A program made the position numbers and the translations under genes. Shown piece after piece: positions 6,632 through 60,742 of a stretch of DNA of 64,000 nt. This stretch comes from Leisingera sp. ANG1 (GTDB lineage Bacteria; Pseudomonadota; Alphaproteobacteria; Rhodobacterales; Rhodobacteraceae), in NCBI RefSeq assembly GCF_000203975.2, contig NZ_AFCF02000009.1, positions 431,552 through 495,551 on the forward strand, given 5' to 3'. Position 1 is the first letter of the stretch. The number at the start of each line of letters is the position of its first letter. Under the pieces are notes generated by a model that had not been told where the DNA came from, made no database searches, and saw only the letters and a program-made list of their open reading frames with translations.

Positions 6632-6708
6632 GGCGGAGTAGCTCAGTTGGTTAGAGCAGCGGAATCATAATCCGCGTGTCGGGGGTTCAAGTCCCTCCTC
6701 CGCTACCA
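6632..6708 (+). tRNA. tRNA-Met (anticodon CAT), elongator type
   Basis: A 77-base tRNA with encoded CCA (6706–6708). The acceptor stem pairs GGCGGAG with CTCCGCT (one G·T pair at 1–72). The D-arm is GCTC/GAGC. The anticodon stem is GCGGA/TCCGC with loop ATCATAA, giving anticodon CAT at 6666–6668. The T-arm contains TTCAAGT. The sequence resembles alphaproteobacterial elongator tRNA-Met more than initiator tRNA or the lysidine-modified tRNA-Ile. The 194 bases after it, up to rtcR, hold nothing I can identify. Confidence 0.95.
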
Positions 6709-6902: not shown

Positions 6903-8483
6903 TCAACCCGTCCCGGGCGCACTTAAGGACTCCCAGTCCAGGCCAAATTTGTGCAGGTACTTCCGCAGCCGGTCGGCGTCATTCTGGGTCTTTCGCTTGC
7001 GCCGCGATGCTGAAAACAGGGTGCGCCCAGCCGCGCTCAGGCTTGTCGATGCCCGGCAAACACGCACAACTTTGGCCAGTTGAACCATGTCAAACGGATC
7101 AATGTCCGCTGCAGCTGCGCCCAAAACCTGCTCTACCAGCCGCACATCGGTATCGGAACTGGAAGCCTGCCAGTCCGTTTGCAGCCTGAGCATTTCGCCC
7201 TCGACCATCGCGCGGGTGATCCTGCCGCGGGGCGCCAGGGTGCACAGGCGCCGGACCGACCCGCTGAAATCGCGGAAATTCGCCGGCCAAAGCGTCGCCG
7301 GATCCTGGGCGAAGCGAAGGAATTTTTCCCGTGCATCCGCGTTGAAACCGACCTGCGTTCCCAGTGCCCGCTCTGACCGCACAAGTTCAAAAGCCAGATT
7401 GGCCTCGATGTCCTCCCGGCGAGCGCGCAGCGGCGGCAGGCTGAAGCGCCACATGCTCAGCCGCGCCAGCAGATCAGACCGGAACTTCCCGGCGGCAGAA
7501 AGGCTGCGCAAGTCACGGCTGGCACCCGCGATCACCTGAAAGCGGCTTGAGACCTCGTGGTCTGACCCCAGCGGGTAATAGCGCCCGGTTTCCAGGGCAT
7601 GCAGCAGGATGGCCTGCATGCTGAGATTCAATTCATCCACCTCATCCAGGAACAGCAACCCGCCATCTGCCTCGCGCAGCAGCCCGCTGCGCTCAGACCC
7701 GGCCTGGCCCAGGTAGCTGCGGCGCTGGCCAAACAGCGTTGCAACCGCGTCAGGTCCGTTCAGGGTCGCGCAATTGACATGCACCAGCCGTCCTTTCACC
7801 CGGCGGCGGTCCAGCTTCAGGTTATAGATGCGCTCTGCCAGTTCGCTCTTGCCGGTGCCGGTTTCACCCAGCAGCAGAATCGGCTCATCGGAACTGCCCG
7901 CCACCAGTTCAACCTGGTCAATCAGGGCGTTATAGGCCGGGTTCCGGGTCTCGATCCCGCCCTTCAGCTGATCGCTGTATTCCCGTGACAGCTGGTCGAA
8001 CCGCTGCTGCAGGGCGTTGTAGCGGCTGAGATCCAGATCGATGATGTCGAACTTTGCCGCGGTGTCCTCCGGACCTGGCGGGCCGGTCTGAACAAGCCTT
8101 GCCGGCACATGGCGGCTTTCCGTCAGCAGGAACCAGCAGATCTGCGCCACATGGGTGCCGGTGGTCAGATGCACATGATATTTTTCGCGGTCCTCGTCAA
8201 ACCCGTATCCCCGGGCGAAATCAAACAGCTTGCCGTAGACCTCCTGAAAATCCCAGGGGTCGTTCAGGTTCAGCTCCTGCAGCAGCACCTCCGTGCCCGG
8301 CGACGCGTCCTCGACCTCGCGCTTCACCTGATGGGCAAGGCGGTTGAACTTGATGTCAAACAGCAGTTCCAGCCGGTCCACGCGGAAGCTGCCGTGTTCA
8401 ACCAGGCTCAGCGTCGGGCGCCAGCGCCGTTTCTTGCCCATGTCGAGCTGCGTTCCAAGAAAGCCGATGACGACATTCCGCAT
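6903..8483 (-). CDS. rtcR: RtcR, CARF-domain AAA+ activator of the RNA-repair operon, with altered GAFTGA motif
   Basis: A 526-residue regulator. The N-terminal CARF-like domain (about 1–180, with Thr-Thr-Gly-Thr-His-Val-Ala-Gln-Ile-Cys-Trp-Phe-Leu-Leu) is thought to sense RNA ends with cyclic phosphates. The AAA+ domain has Walker A Gly-Glu-Thr-Gly-Thr-Gly-Lys-Ser and Walker B Leu-Leu-Phe-Leu-Asp-Glu. The C-terminal helix-turn-helix contains Leu-Ser-Ala-Ala-Gly-Arg and ends in Asn-Asp-Ala-Asp-Arg-Leu-Arg-Lys-Tyr-Leu, like E. coli RtcR. Oddly, the loop that carries GAFTGA in sigma-54 activators reads Ser-Tyr-Leu-Gly-Gln-Ala. The gene is divergent from rsr–rtcB. The ATG at 8483 fits the conserved N-terminus. 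Confidence 0.94.
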   Translation of the reverse strand: MRNVVIGFLGTQLDMGKKRRWRPTLSLVEHGSFRVDRLELLFDIKFNRLAHQVKREVEDASPGTEVLLQELNLNDPWDFQEVYGKLFDFARGYGFDEDREKYHVHLTTGTHVAQICWFLLTESRHVPARLVQTGPPGPEDTAAKFDIIDLDLSRYNALQQRFDQLSREYSDQLKGGIETRNPAYNALIDQVELVAGSSDEPILLLGETGTGKSELAERIYNLKLDRRRVKGRLVHVNCATLNGPDAVATLFGQRRSYLGQAGSERSGLLREADGGLLFLDEVDELNLSMQAILLHALETGRYYPLGSDHEVSSRFQVIAGASRDLRSLSAAGKFRSDLLARLSMWRFSLPPLRARREDIEANLAFELVRSERALGTQVGFNADAREKFLRFAQDPATLWPANFRDFSGSVRRLCTLAPRGRITRAMVEGEMLRLQTDWQASSSDTDVRLVEQVLGAAAADIDPFDMVQLAKVVRVCRASTSLSAAGRTLFSASRRKRKTQNDADRLRKYLHKFGLDWESLSAPGTG

Positions 8484-8573: not shown

Positions 8574-8620
8574 GCACACTACGTGGATTTCCCAATTTTC
8601 TCGATCGCCACCTCCACGCA

Positions 8621-8636
8621 TGGCAAAACAATTCCA
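8621..8636 (+). promoter_or_regulatory. Weak candidate sigma-54 promoter for rsr
   Basis: TGGCAAAACAATTCCA has a good -24 element (TGGCA) and the right 10-base spacing, but CC instead of GC at -12. Transcription would begin near 8646, leaving a leader of roughly a dozen bases that starts at the ribosome-binding site. I regard it as tentative. Confidence 0.3.
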
Positions 8637-8658
8637 CAAACAGAGAAGGACGAGGAAA

Positions 8659-10215
8659 ATGGCAAACAAATCCGTGTTTGCATCGCTGAAGGGCCGGCTG
8701 CAGCCGAAAGTGGACGCTAAAAACGCCGCAGGCGCACCGGCCTACGCCCACACTGACGAACAGGCGCTGGCGCAGGCGGCCATGACCGGCACCTTCGGCG
8801 GCCTGTTCTACCAAAACGCCCAGGCGGAGCTGGAGTTTACCCTCGCCGCGGCCGAAGCCGTTCCGGCAGAGTTCCTGGCCCGGACCGCTGTCTATGCCCG
8901 CACCCAAGGGCACATGAAGGACATGCCGGCGGTGCTGCTGGCGGTACTGGCGCGCCGCAACCCGGTGCTGTTCCGCGCGGTCTTTGGCCGTGTCGTGGAC
9001 AACGGCAAGATGCTGCGCAGCTTCGTGCAGGTCGTCCGCTCCGGCCAGACGGGGCGCAAGTCGCTGGGCTCCGCGCCCAAGGCGATGGTCCAGGACTGGC
9101 TGAACACAGCGTCCGAGCGGGCGCTGCTGCAGGCCAATATCGGCAACAACCCGTCGCTGGCGGATGTGATCCGGATGGTGCACCCGAAACCGGCAACCCC
9201 GGAGCGGGAGGCGCTGTTCGCCTGGATCGTCGGGCGGCCGTGCAATGCGGCACGGCTGCCGCAGGTGGTGCAGGACTGGATGGTGTTCAAGGAAACCGGC
9301 CAGGGGCCGGTGCCGGATGTGCCGTTCCAGATGCTGACCCAGCTGCCGCTGACACCGCAGCACTGGGCGCAGATCGCCCGCCAGGGCTCGTGGCAGATGG
9401 TCCGGCAGAACCTGAACACCTTCCACCGCCACGGTGTGTTCGAGGTGCGCAAGAACGCGGACCGCGTTGCGGCCCTGCTGCGCGCACCCAAGGCAATCGC
9501 CAGGGCACGGGTGCTCCCGTACCAGCTGATGGCGGCGGCGCAGAACGTTGTGCCGGATATGCCGCCTCAGATCGTGGATGCGCTGCATGACGCGATGGAG
9601 ATTGCGGTCTCCAATGTGCCCCAGGTGGCGGGCCAGGTTGTGGTGTGCCCGGATGTGTCCGGCTCGATGACCTGGCCGGTAACGGGCCACCGCCCGGGGG
9701 CGGCTTCGGTGGTGCGCCACGTGGACGTGGCCGCCCTGGTTGCCGCGGCCTTTGCCCGGGTGAACCGCGGCTGCCAGGTGCTGCCGTTCGATCTGGAAGT
9801 GCGCGATGTGCGGCTTCAGGCGCGCGATACGGTGCTGACCAATGCCGAGCGGCTCGCCGCACTGGCAGGCGGCGGGACCAACTGTTCGGCGCCGCTGAAA
9901 TGGCTGAACAGCCGCGGCCGGGCGCCGGATCTGGTGGTCTTTGTCTCCGACAACCAGTCGTGGGCAGATGCCCGCGGCGGACGTCAGGGCACAGCGATGA
10001 TGCAGGAATGGGAGCTGATCAAGCTTCGCAATCCCAAGGCCAAACTGGCCTGCATCGACATCGCGCCCTACGGCACCACCCAGGCGCAGACACGCAGGGA
10101 TGTGCTGAACATCGGCGGCTTCTCGGATGCGGTATTCGGCCAGATCGCCGATTTCGCCGCAGGCCGGACCGGCCCGGACCATTGGGTTGGCGAGATCGCA
10201 AGGATCGCATTGTAA
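8659..10215 (+). CDS. rsr: Rsr, TROVE-domain Ro60 orthologue
   Basis: A 518-residue ring-shaped RNA-binding protein of the Ro60 family. In bacteria such proteins bind Y RNAs, which can gate access of structured RNAs to polynucleotide phosphorylase. The TROVE (HEAT-like) region covers about 1–310. A von Willebrand A domain follows with a MIDAS signature Asp332-x-Ser-Gly-Ser, the Gly-Gly-Gly-Thr-Asn-Cys segment and a later Val-Ser-Asp. The ATG at 8659 follows AAGGACGAGG and is preferred over an upstream in-frame ATG at 8620. Three Y-RNA-like genes and rtcB follow on the same strand, the arrangement known for the Salmonella rsr–yrlBA–rtcBA operon. Confidence 0.95.
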   Translation: MANKSVFASLKGRLQPKVDAKNAAGAPAYAHTDEQALAQAAMTGTFGGLFYQNAQAELEFTLAAAEAVPAEFLARTAVYARTQGHMKDMPAVLLAVLARRNPVLFRAVFGRVVDNGKMLRSFVQVVRSGQTGRKSLGSAPKAMVQDWLNTASERALLQANIGNNPSLADVIRMVHPKPATPEREALFAWIVGRPCNAARLPQVVQDWMVFKETGQGPVPDVPFQMLTQLPLTPQHWAQIARQGSWQMVRQNLNTFHRHGVFEVRKNADRVAALLRAPKAIARARVLPYQLMAAAQNVVPDMPPQIVDALHDAMEIAVSNVPQVAGQVVVCPDVSGSMTWPVTGHRPGAASVVRHVDVAALVAAAFARVNRGCQVLPFDLEVRDVRLQARDTVLTNAERLAALAGGGTNCSAPLKWLNSRGRAPDLVVFVSDNQSWADARGGRQGTAMMQEWELIKLRNPKAKLACIDIAPYGTTQAQTRRDVLNIGGFSDAVFGQIADFAAGRTGPDHWVGEIARIAL

Positions 10216-10272: not shown

Positions 10273-10442
10273 CCCCTGGCGAATGCCGGCGGAACTACAG
10301 AGCTGATAACTCCCTTGTCGCGGGTTCGAATCCCGCCGCGCCAGCCAATCAAGTGATGGCGCGTAGCTCAGTCTGGTAGAGCAGGAATGTTTCGCCCCGG
10401 CCGTGCTTTGCACGCAAACACGGCCACCTTGTCGCCAGGGAC
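10273..10442 (+). ncRNA. Y RNA 1 (YrlA-like) with a circularly permuted tRNA-like domain
   Basis: The ends pair through CCCTGGCGA (10274–10282) and TCGCCAGGG (10432–10440). Inside is a tRNA in permuted order. First comes an anticodon-loop-like CTGATAA (10303–10309), then the T-arm GCGGG-TTCGAAT-CCCGC (10320–10336), then acceptor 3' strand CGCGCCA plus GCCA (10337–10347). After a nine-base linker come acceptor 5' strand TGGCGCG (10357–10363), TA, and the D-arm GCTC-AGTCTGGTA-GAGC (10366–10382). A partial anticodon-stem helix GGAAT/ACTCC joins the two modules. A further hairpin GGCCGTG/CACGGCC lies at 10399–10424. Positions corresponding to U8, A14, G18G19, T54-T55-C56 and A58 are kept. The likely partner is the Rsr protein. 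Exact ends need mapping. Confidence 0.85.
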
Positions 10443-10452
10443 CAAATAAAAT

Positions 10453-10549
10453 GCAGGAGGAATGCCTGTGGGACTACATCTGGTGCTGCCTGTTCGATTC
10501 AGGCTCGCCCTTCGGGGTTAGAATGTCCCGCACCCCTTTGTCCTCCTGA
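10453..10549 (+). ncRNA. Y RNA 2, short form with a T-arm-like hairpin
   Basis: Terminal helix CAGGAGGA (10454–10461) with TCCTCCTG (10541–10548). It shares with its neighbours GAATGCC, three bases, GGGACTACA at the 5' side and CCTTTGTC at the 3' side. An internal helix GGTGC/GCACC encloses GCCTG-TTCGATT-CAGGC (10488–10504), whose seven-base loop looks like a tRNA T-loop, and a CCC-TTCG-GGG tetraloop hairpin (10508–10517). It has no D-arm or acceptor counterpart. It starts about ten bases after Y RNA 1, so the three are probably processed from one transcript. Confidence 0.75.
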
Positions 10550-10565
10550 CCCGAATTGAAAGGAA

Positions 10566-10725
10566 AGCCCCGGCGAATGCCGAAGGAACTACAAGGCACT
10601 TCACCTCCGGAACGGCCGAGCGGGTTCAACTCCCCTCCTTGCCGGCGCCCAGACGGAAAACGCATCTGCCCATTCAGATGCGGGGCGGGCCTCCGGGTTG
10701 TTTCTTCCCCCTTGTCGCCGGGGCC
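10566..10725 (+). ncRNA. Y RNA 3 (YrlB-like)
   Basis: Terminal helix of ten pairs, GCCCCGGCGA (10567–10576) with TCGCCGGGGC (10715–10724). It shares GAATGCC, three bases, GGAACTACA and a 3' CCCTTGTC with the other two. Internal helices include CAAGG/CCTTG (10592–10596 with 10637–10641) and a perfect 8-bp hairpin CGCATCTG/CAGATGCG (10661–10682). A GGG-TTCAACT-CCC element at 10622–10634 is a weaker T-arm-like structure. It ends about 22 bases before the rtcB start. Confidence 0.75.
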
Positions 10726-10747: not shown

Positions 10748-12163
10748 ATGACCAATGACGCGACCTTCGACCCTGTCACCGGGGCGCATCTGAAGGACTG
10801 GGGCCACCGCCCCGGCAAACAGTTCCCGGCCCTGCTGGACAAGGCCAACGCACTGCGGGCCGAAGGCTTTGGCCTGGTCCGCATCCGCCAGGAACTGGAA
10901 GGCGAGATCCCGCCGCAGCCGGCCACCCTGAGCCTGCGCGCCCGCGGCGAGGTGCCGTTTGAGGAAAACATCACCGCGGCGCACCCGGACGAGGAAACCA
11001 ACGTGACCCAAGTCCGTGCGACCATGACAGAGCTGATGCGCACCCCGACGATCGACGCCGGCGCCATCATGCCGGACGCCTGCCCGGCCGGCCCGGTGGG
11101 GACAATCCCGGTCGGCGGCATTGCCGCTGCGCGGAACGCCATCCATCCTGGGATGCATTCGGCGGACATCTGCTGTTCCGTTATGATCACCGATCTGGGC
11201 AACGCAGACCCCAAGGCAGTGCTGGACGCCGCCCAGTCGGTCACCCATTTCGGCCCCGGCGGGCGGCCGCAGGGCAAGCGGTTCACCACCTCGCTCAAGC
11301 TGCTGGATGCGTTCCGGGCAAACCCGTTTCTGGACAACCCCAAGTCGCTGCGCATGGCGCAGGAGCACATGGGAACCCAGGGCGACGGCAACCACTTCCT
11401 GTTTGTGGGCCGCTCGCGCAAGACCGGCCGCACCGCGATTGTGACCCATCACGGCTCGCGCGGGCCGGGGGCCGTGCTCTACAAGAACGGCATGGCTGTG
11501 GCGGAGCGCTTCCGCAAAGAGCTGTCACCGGAAACCGCCAAGCAGAACGCCTGGATCCCTGCGGACACGCAGGAGGGCCGCGACTACTGGGAAGCGCTGC
11601 AACTGATCCGCAAATGGACCAAGGCCAACCATAACGCCATTCATCAGGCGACGGTGGAGGCCGCCCGGACAGGCGACGTCGGCGACCGCTACTGGAACGA
11701 ACACAACTTTGTCTTCAAGCGCGGTGACCTCTACTACCACGGCAAGGGTGCGACCCCTGCCTGGGGGGATTACGCCGCTGATGCCACCGGCCTCACGCTG
11801 ATTCCGCTGAACATGTCGGAACCGGTGCTGGTGGCCCGCGGCAAGGATGCGGCCCGCGGCCTGGGCTTCAGCCCGCATGGCGCGGGGCGGAATTTTTCCC
11901 GCTCCGAGCACAAGCGCCGGATGGGGTCCGTGACGCCGGAACAGATGCTGCAGGCCGAGACCGAAGGCCTGGACATCCGCTTTCATGCCGGCGGGGTTGA
12001 CGCCTCGGAGCTGCCGTCGAGCTACAAGAAGGCGCAGAGCGTTGTCGATCAGATCAAATCCTACGATCTGGCCGAAATTGAGGACTACATCGACCCTTAC
12101 GGCTGCATCATGGCCGGCGATGTGCCGCCGTTCTGGAAGAACCGGAAGAAAGGCCGGCGATAG
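10748..12163 (+). CDS. rtcB: RtcB family RNA-splicing ligase
   Basis: A 471-residue RNA ligase that joins 2',3'-cyclic-phosphate (or 3'-phosphate) and 5'-hydroxyl RNA ends using GTP and Mn2+. Recognisable family segments are Asp-Ile-Cys-Cys (residues 140–143, metal site), Gly-Thr-Gln-Gly-Asp-Gly-Asn-His-Phe (209–217), His-His-Gly-Ser-Arg-Gly (234–239) and Pro-His-Gly-Ala-Gly-Arg (376–381) with the guanylylated His377, then Tyr-Lys-Lys near the C-terminus. Some residues differ from the usual forms (Asp-Gly for Gly-Gly, His-His for His-Ser), so it may be a divergent subgroup. Last gene of the rsr–Y RNA–rtcB unit; no rtcA follows. The ATG at 10748 has only a weak ribosome-binding site. Confidence 0.93.
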   Translation: MTNDATFDPVTGAHLKDWGHRPGKQFPALLDKANALRAEGFGLVRIRQELEGEIPPQPATLSLRARGEVPFEENITAAHPDEETNVTQVRATMTELMRTPTIDAGAIMPDACPAGPVGTIPVGGIAAARNAIHPGMHSADICCSVMITDLGNADPKAVLDAAQSVTHFGPGGRPQGKRFTTSLKLLDAFRANPFLDNPKSLRMAQEHMGTQGDGNHFLFVGRSRKTGRTAIVTHHGSRGPGAVLYKNGMAVAERFRKELSPETAKQNAWIPADTQEGRDYWEALQLIRKWTKANHNAIHQATVEAARTGDVGDRYWNEHNFVFKRGDLYYHGKGATPAWGDYAADATGLTLIPLNMSEPVLVARGKDAARGLGFSPHGAGRNFSRSEHKRRMGSVTPEQMLQAETEGLDIRFHAGGVDASELPSSYKKAQSVVDQIKSYDLAEIEDYIDPYGCIMAGDVPPFWKNRKKGRR

Positions 12164-32771: not shown

Positions 32772-32814
32772 TGCTCCATTGGTTTAGCCTTGCCACGCCA
32801 GGAAGCCGTTGTGA
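32772..32814 (-). promoter_or_regulatory. SAM/SAH riboswitch (metK leader)
   Basis: On the minus strand the leader reads TCACAACGGCTTCC near its 5' side, GCGTGGC in the middle and CCAATGGAGCA at the 3' end. This is the compact SAM/SAH (metK-Rhodobacterales) class, a pseudoknot of about 43 bases. The 3' GGAGC can pair with the GCTTCC segment; it is also the metK ribosome-binding site, so ligand binding would hide it. The class match is by recognition of the sequence. Confidence 0.85.
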
Positions 32815-32881
32815 CAGGTATCAAGCCGCATTACGCGGCTCATCCGCGCAGGTCAATCTATATTCCGGTAGAGTTAAGCAG

Positions 32882-60286: not shown

Positions 60287-60742
60287 TCAGCCGCGGCTGA
60301 ACACCTGCCGCAGGATTGCCTCCAGCTGGTCAGCGTCTTCCTGAGTGAAGGCATCGGGCTTGTCGCTGTCAATGTCAAACACCCCGATCAGTTCTCCAGC
60401 ACCGTTCCAAACCGGCAGCACCAGCTCCGAGCGTGTAGAGGACGCGCAGGCGATGTGGCCGGGAAAGGCATCGACATCCGGTACCAGTTGCACCACACCA
60501 GTGCGCGCCGCTGCGCCGCAAACGCCGCGGGAGAATGGGATCTGCAGGCAGCCATGGCCGCCCTGATAAGGCCCGATCTTCAGCAGCTCCGGTGCCACGA
60601 CGCGGTAAAAGCCGGTCCAGTTGAAGCGGCCGTCCGCGTGGTGCACCTCGCAGGCCACGGTGGCCATCAGCGCCACTTCATCCGTTTCGCCTTCGGTCAG
60701 CGCCGCGATGGTCTTGGCCAGGGTTGCGTATTCAACCTGCAT
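60287..60742 (-). CDS. Free methionine-(R)-sulfoxide reductase (GAF domain)
   Basis: A 151-residue GAF-domain enzyme. The three catalytic/resolving cysteines are Cys65 (Gly-Cys-Leu-Gln-Ile-Pro), Cys75 (Gly-Val-Cys-Gly) and Cys99 (His-Ile-Ala-Cys), in the spacing of the fRMsr (MsrC) family, with Phe-Pro-Gly-His-Ile-Ala preceding the last. It reduces free methionine sulfoxide in the cytoplasm. ATG 60742 gives a normal N-terminus; the frame to 60826 is unsupported. Stands alone between a terminator and the thiolase. Confidence 0.9.
   Translation of the reverse strand: MQVEYATLAKTIAALTEGETDEVALMATVACEVHHADGRFNWTGFYRVVAPELLKIGPYQGGHGCLQIPFSRGVCGAAARTGVVQLVPDVDAFPGHIACASSTRSELVLPVWNGAGELIGVFDIDSDKPDAFTQEDADQLEAILRQVFSRG

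Follow-up and report, generated by a model that had tools for sequence, protein, structure and literature searches.

That YrlA mimics tRNA in circularly permuted form is already published: in the excerpted texts for which PMC sources are cited here and below, a bacterial Y RNA superposes on tRNA by circular permutation (PDB 6CU1; PMC11472068), and YrlA, in line with the tRNA mimicry that a first-pass annotation of the present DNA took as known for bacterial Y RNAs, has D, T and acceptor arms and serves as a substrate of DusA and TruB (PMC8394870). In Salmonella the RtcR operon responds to tRNA damage, and the role of Rsr and Y RNAs in RNA repair operons is described as an open question (PMC7790460). 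Permuted order also occurs in algal and archaeal tRNA genes, in which the 3' part comes first, a linker joins the acceptor ends and the junction may fall in the D loop or the anticodon loop (PMC3978253), and in the alphaproteobacterial two-piece tmRNA, which has a permuted gene and a tRNA-like structure (PMC3985003).

In the window (i.e., the whole 64,000-nucleotide stretch of Leisingera sp. ANG1 DNA that was analysed), three Y RNAs sit between rsr and rtcB, and rtcR is transcribed divergently from rsr:

6903..8483, minus strand: rtcR, RNA repair operon regulator (Pfam RtcR PF06956, E 2.4e-72; NCBIfam RNA_repair_RtcR, 680.7 bits against a cut-off of 650)
8620..10215, plus strand: rsr, Ro60 orthologue (Pfam vWA_Ro60, E 2.4e-15)
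10274..10440, plus strand: Y RNA 1, YrlA-like (Rfam RF02553, 62.4 bits, E 7e-14; fold)
10455..10550, plus strand: Y RNA 2 (Rfam RF02553, 39.3 bits; fold)
10570..10724, plus strand: Y RNA 3 (Rfam RF02553, 17.3 bits, E 0.8; fold)
10748..12163, plus strand: rtcB, RNA ligase (Pfam RtcB PF01139, E 1.4e-33)

The rsr product scores 23.1 bits with Pfam TROVE (cut-off 23) and 76.7 bits with NCBIfam Rsr, far under the cut-off of 900 for that model. Y RNA 2 is shorter and has a T-arm-like hairpin and no D arm. Y RNA 3 carries a different module, also with a T-arm-like hairpin, and represents a second Y RNA type (GGGTTCAACTCCCC hairpin, GCCC...GGGC) that is present in many loci and barely matched by the Rfam YrlA model. 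Elsewhere in the window there are a tRNA-Met(cat) gene just past rtcR (6632-6708) and a SAM/SAH riboswitch (32772-32820, minus strand); a search of the whole 64 kb for the sigma-54 consensus, allowing at most one mismatch, gave a single match at 60582 and none near rsr.

Y RNA 1 has the hallmarks of YrlA: its gene adjoins rsr, its basal stem carries the conserved GCGAAUGC..GGAACUAC and CUUGUCGCC (sequence, fold), and its arms follow in the permuted order of T arm, acceptor and D arm. Outside the tRNA-like part, its elements are:

10274-10282 with 10432-10440, plus strand: basal stem (fold)
10283-10287, plus strand: AUGCC
10288-10295 with 10389-10396, plus strand: second helix (fold)
10399-10425, plus strand: extra hairpin, lying after the second helix and ahead of the basal stem's 3' strand

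Since its score falls short of the RF02553 gathering score of 69 bits (the alignment has a 14-nt insert and a misplaced 3' strand), we class Y RNA 1 as a variant and not as a plain YrlA member; a same-genus relative scores 72.0 bits, and the gathering score is reached in 20 of 394 family genomes. An insert similar to the extra hairpin was found in one other genome (G347).

Read in permuted order, positions 10300-10385 form a complete 77-nt tRNA, in the succession nt 29-76 (GAG, loop CTGATAA, CTCCC, TTGTC, T arm, CGCGCCA, GCCA), a 9-nt linker and nt 1-28:

10300..10314, plus strand: tRNA nt 29-43, i.e., stem 29-31 GAG, loop 32-38 CTGATAA and stem 39-43 CTCCC (sequence; covariation in relatives)
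10315..10319, plus strand: variable loop TTGTC, nt 44-48 (sequence; comparison of pair 15-48)
10320..10336, plus strand: T arm, nt 49-65 (sequence; 100% of cells paired in relatives)
10337..10343, plus strand: acceptor 3' strand CGCGCCA, nt 66-72 (pairs with 10357-10363)
10344..10347, plus strand: discriminator G73 and encoded CCA, i.e., GCCA (NCCA comparison in relatives)
10348..10356, plus strand: linker ATCAAGTGA, from CCA to nt 1 (sequence)
10357..10363, plus strand: acceptor 5' strand TGGCGCG, nt 1-7 (sequence; covariation)
10364..10383, plus strand: U8, A9, D arm (proper, 10366-10382) and nt 26 (sequence; comparison of U8-A14)
10384..10385, plus strand: nt 27-28 (GG), pairing with 42-43 over the chain break (covariation)

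The first-pass annotation had described a nearly complete permuted tRNA, and sequence and relatives together make it more complete still. The T arm and acceptor 3' strand do precede the acceptor 5' strand and D arm, the acceptor helix is a perfect 7 bp enclosing 13 nt (GCCA and the linker ATCAAGTGA), and the contact positions named at the time stand where they were placed (U8 10364, A14 10370, G18G19 10375-10376, T54T55C56 10325-10327 and A58 10329), joined by G15 at 10371 and C48 at 10319. Two points needed revision. Residues 10300-10319, ahead of the T arm, are tRNA nt 29-48 and no mere spacer, and the anticodon-like CTGATAA among them is the loop of a possible 5-bp stem (GAG 10300-10302 with CTC 10310-10312; CC 10313-10314 with GG 10384-10385). 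The Rsr module, taken to be attached at an opened anticodon end, is indeed attached there, but the arm itself is complete: judged from the letters, the chain is interrupted between nt 28 and 29, within the anticodon stem's 5' strand, and this is the site at which the putative Ro60(Rsr)-binding stem attaches. De-permuted, the module has the four stems, a 7-nt loop with U33 and purine 37, and the tertiary positions of a canonical tRNA, but not its contiguous chain with a free 3' CCA, as the break stands at 28/29 and the CCA is internal as encoded. ARAGORN calls the de-permuted letters a 77-nt tRNA-Ile(gat), though the program is lenient, having called 30 of 33 modules in that run, some of them without an anticodon arm. 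We are highly confident, from sequence and comparison, that the outer module of Y RNA 1 is a complete circularly permuted tRNA, in which the elbow and acceptor stem are kept along with an encoded NCCA and an anticodon loop like that of a tRNA.

With Salmonella Typhimurium YrlA (PDB 6CU1; RF02553), Y RNA 1 shares a Ro60-binding stem (putative here), an operon with rsr and rtcB, and the order of T arm, acceptor and D arm; unlike it, Y RNA 1 has an anticodon arm that is complete and bears a real tRNA loop, an acceptor of 7 bp, the GCCA and the 28/29 opening. The algal and archaeal permuted tRNAs, which have the same 3'-first order and linker between acceptor ends, become functional tRNAs through splicing at a BHB motif, whereas the junction of Y RNA 1 holds the putative Ro60-binding stem. 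The two-piece tmRNA resembles it in gene order and tRNA-like structure, but Y RNA 1 has no tag-coding part, and tmRNA is not known to have an anticodon arm. In the literature searched, outside which the key Y RNA papers lie, we found no Y RNA described as having CCA or a complete anticodon arm, and no mention of tRNA genes within these operons.

The YrlA model (E ≤1e-5) matched in 3 of 21 genus genomes and 31 of 394 family genomes, and operons were read for 24 of the 31 (the window's included), the other seven being all low-scoring. In addition, we used the best 80 of 521 relatives from an Rsr alignment scan, which with the window gave 81 loci, partly overlapping with the family-scan genomes, whose stretch from rsr to rtcB was read. 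The distance d from CUAC to the T arm served to sort the Y RNAs, and a finder demanding a T arm, an acceptor of at least 5/7 pairs and a D stem of at least 3/4 identified modules; pairing in those helices is therefore partly selected, whereas pairing in the anticodon stem is not. At d 18-22 with at least 5/7 acceptor pairs there are 67 modules in 56 of the 81 loci, 62 of them distinct (the module of Y RNA 1 is identical to that of locus L152 and was counted once), so that what had been called an unusually clear permuted case does not stand alone. For covariation we used an alignment, A2, of 49 of 63 modules (the 62 and the window's), which excludes L152, three Leu types, six modules of one group with 6-nt loops, and four modules from Labrys, of which three have 6-nt loops and one is armless; kindred sequences weigh more than once in its counts.

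Other Y RNAs of these operons appear to be opened elsewhere. Nineteen distinct Y RNAs at d 14-17 can pair 27-31 with 39-43 (5/5 in six and 4/5 in 13; raw counts) and would, to judge by their letters, open in the anticodon loop. By eye, the D loop seems to be the opening of some at d 28-43, a few of which have a long variable arm of the tRNA-Leu kind. Y RNAs that look, again by eye, like a permuted tRNA-Leu with such an arm and a D-loop opening are L157:5756, L163:5710, L165:5752, L166:5484, L195:6397, L197:5936, L201:6603 and L203:6289; others that look opened there have a short hairpin where the anticodon arm would be (L183:5126, L192:5167, L202:5217, L204:5661, L208:5378 and L212:5324, among others).

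Beyond these operons, 45 plasmid records, 41 of them from Rhizobium, match the Y RNA 1 query, none covering more than 80% of it; in the one examined, the flanking genes are annotated as a regulator, a 'probable ribonucleoprotein' and a hypothetical protein. A single phage match, covering 37% of the query, lies in an unannotated stretch of Pseudoalteromonas phage J2-1 (L234:2501-2562) that resembles part of Y RNA 1, shortly upstream of a gene for a PF11443 protein. Sought in the E. coli collection for an enterobacterial comparison, the Rfam YrlA consensus was not matched there. Tandem tRNA gene junctions (L003, L133-L148) are hit by the Rfam YrlA model as well, so genome-wide YrlA counts can be inflated; phylum-wide matches, which include the tandem tRNA-Lys genes of L133-L148 (by eye), were for this reason left unused as Y RNA counts.

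Pairing within each RNA far exceeded that obtained when partners were exchanged between RNAs. In the 62 modules, 116 of 124 possible pairs form at 27-28:42-43 (exchanged mean 96.4), 150 of 186 at 29-31:39-41 (105.5) and 411 of 434 in the acceptor (264.8), the last upholding the acceptor complementarity in relatives on which the first-pass annotation had staked its reading, in a helix that the finder partly selects; none of 5000 shuffles reached the observed value for any of the three helices. An earlier family-scan set of 23 modules, from largely the same genomes, gave 44/46, 63/69 and 154/161, values reached in 2, 0 and 0 of 10000 shuffles. A 5-bp anticodon stem is possible in 53 of the 62 (42 with 7-nt and 11 with 6-nt loops), in 13 different stem sequences; the remaining nine comprise five with 4/5 pairs, one armless module and the three Leu types, which fail the stem test in that their variable loop exceeds the length allowed.

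In A2, the permuted cloverleaf pairs 98.3% of cells, with a covariation of 0.512 against 0.151 when shuffled and at most 0.131 when slid. All seven acceptor pairs and all five anticodon-stem pairs show two-sided changes, including the two pairs over the break (27-28:42-43), where 100% of cells are paired and 13 are changed on both sides. A structure-blind scan of all column pairs placed acceptor, anticodon and T stem pairs of the tRNA at ranks 1-11 and the tertiary pair 15-48, the Levitt pair, at rank 12 (GC 43, AU 6, other 0; n=49). U8-A14, U54-A58, U55C56 and A21 are each kept in 49/49 modules and the D-loop GG in 48/49; together with pair 15-48, these positions support a three-dimensional tRNA core, and not stems alone. 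ARAGORN called 62/62 de-permuted modules, 28 to 37 of 62 after halves were exchanged (five runs) and 0/62 after letters were shuffled (three runs). Part of the covariation may have been inherited from different donor tRNAs.

Energy models alone do not recover this fold: in Y RNA 1 the tRNA fold lies 6.1 kcal/mol above the minimum (-70.9 vs -77.0, in a model without tertiary contacts), and the anticodon stem has pair probabilities of at most 0.003, the D arm one of 0.011. The competing helix, GAGCU 10300-10304 with AGCUC 10365-10369, is not conserved, since only 3 of 49 A2 rows begin with GAGCU. Of 42 modules, 21 have a pair probability above 0.5 for the D arm, 7 for the 29-31 stem and one for the 27-28 pairs, and none has it for all five helices; the same energy models recovered all four stems in 9 of 31 real tRNAs of the genome. 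RNAalifold predicted the T, acceptor and D helices and omitted the anticodon stem. Such disfavour, along with the Rfam YrlA consensus, which has no anticodon arm, and the other Y RNAs of these operons, in which an intact one is missing, is what would be expected if Y RNA 1 were an ordinary YrlA mimic of elbow and acceptor, its anticodon-like arm and CCA being a roleless spacer. Two-sided changes in every anticodon-stem pair, over the break as well, and the likeness of the loops to real tRNA loops make this very unlikely.

That likeness is substantial. Among 24 distinct 7-nt loops, U33 and purine 37 each occur in 22; eight equal a tRNA loop of this genome and 17 lie within one base of one, compared with means of 0.2 and 1.6 after letters were shuffled within loops (observed values reached in 0/5000). 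When columns were shuffled with U33 and A37 kept, eight exact loops were reached in 5 of 5000 shuffles and 17 within one base in 388 of 5000. The eight exact loops are those of Arg (three), Asn, Asp, His, Ile and Lys tRNAs. G34-U35, the type of Asn/Asp/His loops, was noted post hoc in 25 of 42 modules with 7-nt loops, with nine of 12 stem sequences and eight of the 24 distinct loops.

NCCA directly follows the acceptor strand in 28 of the 62 modules, 27 of these with a 5-bp anticodon stem, as against 0 of 34 distinct Y RNAs with d <18 (Fisher 2.9e-7), which have no intact anticodon loop; the NCCA modules with 7-nt loops (n=26) have 19 different acceptor helices. Position 73 is a purine in 27 of the 28, and the last base of the linker is T in 19, A in 6, C in 2 and G in 1. 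These features would suit a permuted precursor that RNase P cuts 5' of nt 1 and whose linker exonucleases trim to CCA, leaving a Ro60-tethered tRNA in two pieces that base pairing holds together, its CCA end free and maybe charged, and the order is that of the alphaproteobacterial two-piece tmRNA, whose precursor is believed to mature through RNase P and tRNase Z (PMC3985003). We nevertheless consider this fate rather doubtful: 34 of the 62 modules have no NCCA, some having linkers of 0 to 3 nt, N73 agrees with the anticodon isotype in 17 of 27, a count that 449 of 5000 shuffles also attained (mean 13.0), and G73 of Y RNA 1 misfits tRNA-Ile, for which this genome has A73.

Descent from a tRNA gene, as the first-pass annotation had proposed, finds support at the level of the family and none in a donor within this genome, for which that annotation had advised a search. 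Y RNA 1 is identical to tRNA-Met(cat) and tRNA-Lys(ttt) at 62 of 77 positions and to tRNA-Ile at 57, while the 31 ordinary tRNAs of the genome have 53 to 62 positions identical to the nearest other isotype; as its best match lies within this ordinary range, no recent donor shows, and none of the 49 tRNA matches compared stands out. By eye, however, L160:5145, L189:5581 and L201:5236 combine a tRNA-Leu-type D arm (TGGCGGAA.TGGTAGACGC) with a Leu-type loop (TTCAGGT or TTCAAAT), a match that, on the letters, is not easily accounted for unless they descend from a tRNA gene. It also weighs against the alternative in which selection for mimicry produced the tRNA shape convergently, with no tRNA gene as its source. 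Convergence would account for the missing donor and for module bodies that are rather uniform while their loops vary, but it remains unlikely given these three modules and loops whose summed distance to real tRNA loops was matched in 0 of 5000 column shuffles.

A tandem tRNA gene pair already has the permuted order, and tRNA genes are the probable source of the module, e.g., a tandem pair that lost its outer halves, with an anticodon loop that would later have changed among real tRNA loops; tandem duplication has been proposed as the origin of permuted tmRNA and tRNA genes (PMC3978253). The same proposal, and the matches of the YrlA model to tandem tRNA junctions (e.g., G000 C1:16366-16497) and to tRNA-Lys arrays (by eye), could be read as a sign that a tRNA fragment or tandem junction was captured by a Y RNA gene and is now decaying. 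A decaying relic is extremely improbable when 5-bp stems, in 13 sequences, persist in 53 of 62 modules, compensatory changes have been retained over long times and the tertiary positions scarcely vary.

Ordinary-order tRNAs are also called between rsr and rtcB, in 44 of the 81 loci (L152-L231 plus the window) and not in the window's own locus. There are 22 Asn(GTT), 16 Gln(TTG), 14 Pro(TGG/CGG), 13 Lys(TTT/CTT) and three odd calls, i.e., 65 of 68 are Asn, Gln, Lys or Pro, and the tRNA-Gln calls have at most 0.78 identity to tRNA-Gln of the window's genome. Such operon-borne tRNAs would fit a setting of tRNA damage.

We propose that the operon would be switched on by damaged tRNA, as in Salmonella, and that Y RNA 1, tethered to Ro60 by the putative binding stem that grows from its 28/29 opening, may present a full tRNA surface to enzymes that grip both elbow and anticodon loop. 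Anticodon nucleases are the likeliest of these, and repair or decay enzymes, e.g., RtcB or PNPase, may be recruited by Y RNA 1 as well. This role as bait or competitor for tRNA-gripping enzymes is tentative, and we give it somewhat less than an even chance. YrlA has been suggested as a competitor against an anticodon nuclease, and in the excerpted account no Salmonella YrlA fragments were detected while an SOS-linked nuclease acted, which counts against the proposed role (PMC7790460); a full anticodon arm would suit bait or competition better than a mimic of the elbow only. The whole explanation (i.e., a permuted-tRNA Y RNA opened at 28/29, the bait or competitor mechanism and an origin from tRNA genes) is, on balance, the one we favour. 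Its extension to alphaproteobacterial RNA repair operons at large, as systems with whole permuted tRNAs and interchangeable loops as Ro60-tethered nuclease bait, with RNase P opening the CCA-bearing acceptors and many operons supplying spare Asn, Gln, Lys and Pro tRNAs, is speculative and as a whole improbable, if worth stating.

Cumulatively, these results suggest a full stand-in for tRNA, beyond the partial look-alike known so far: a tRNA rebuilt around a new attachment point, with openings that differ among related operons. The compensatory upkeep of a full anticodon arm across numerous genomes suggests that anticodon-loop-reading enzymes are involved, and the conservation of this arm makes the decoy idea testable.
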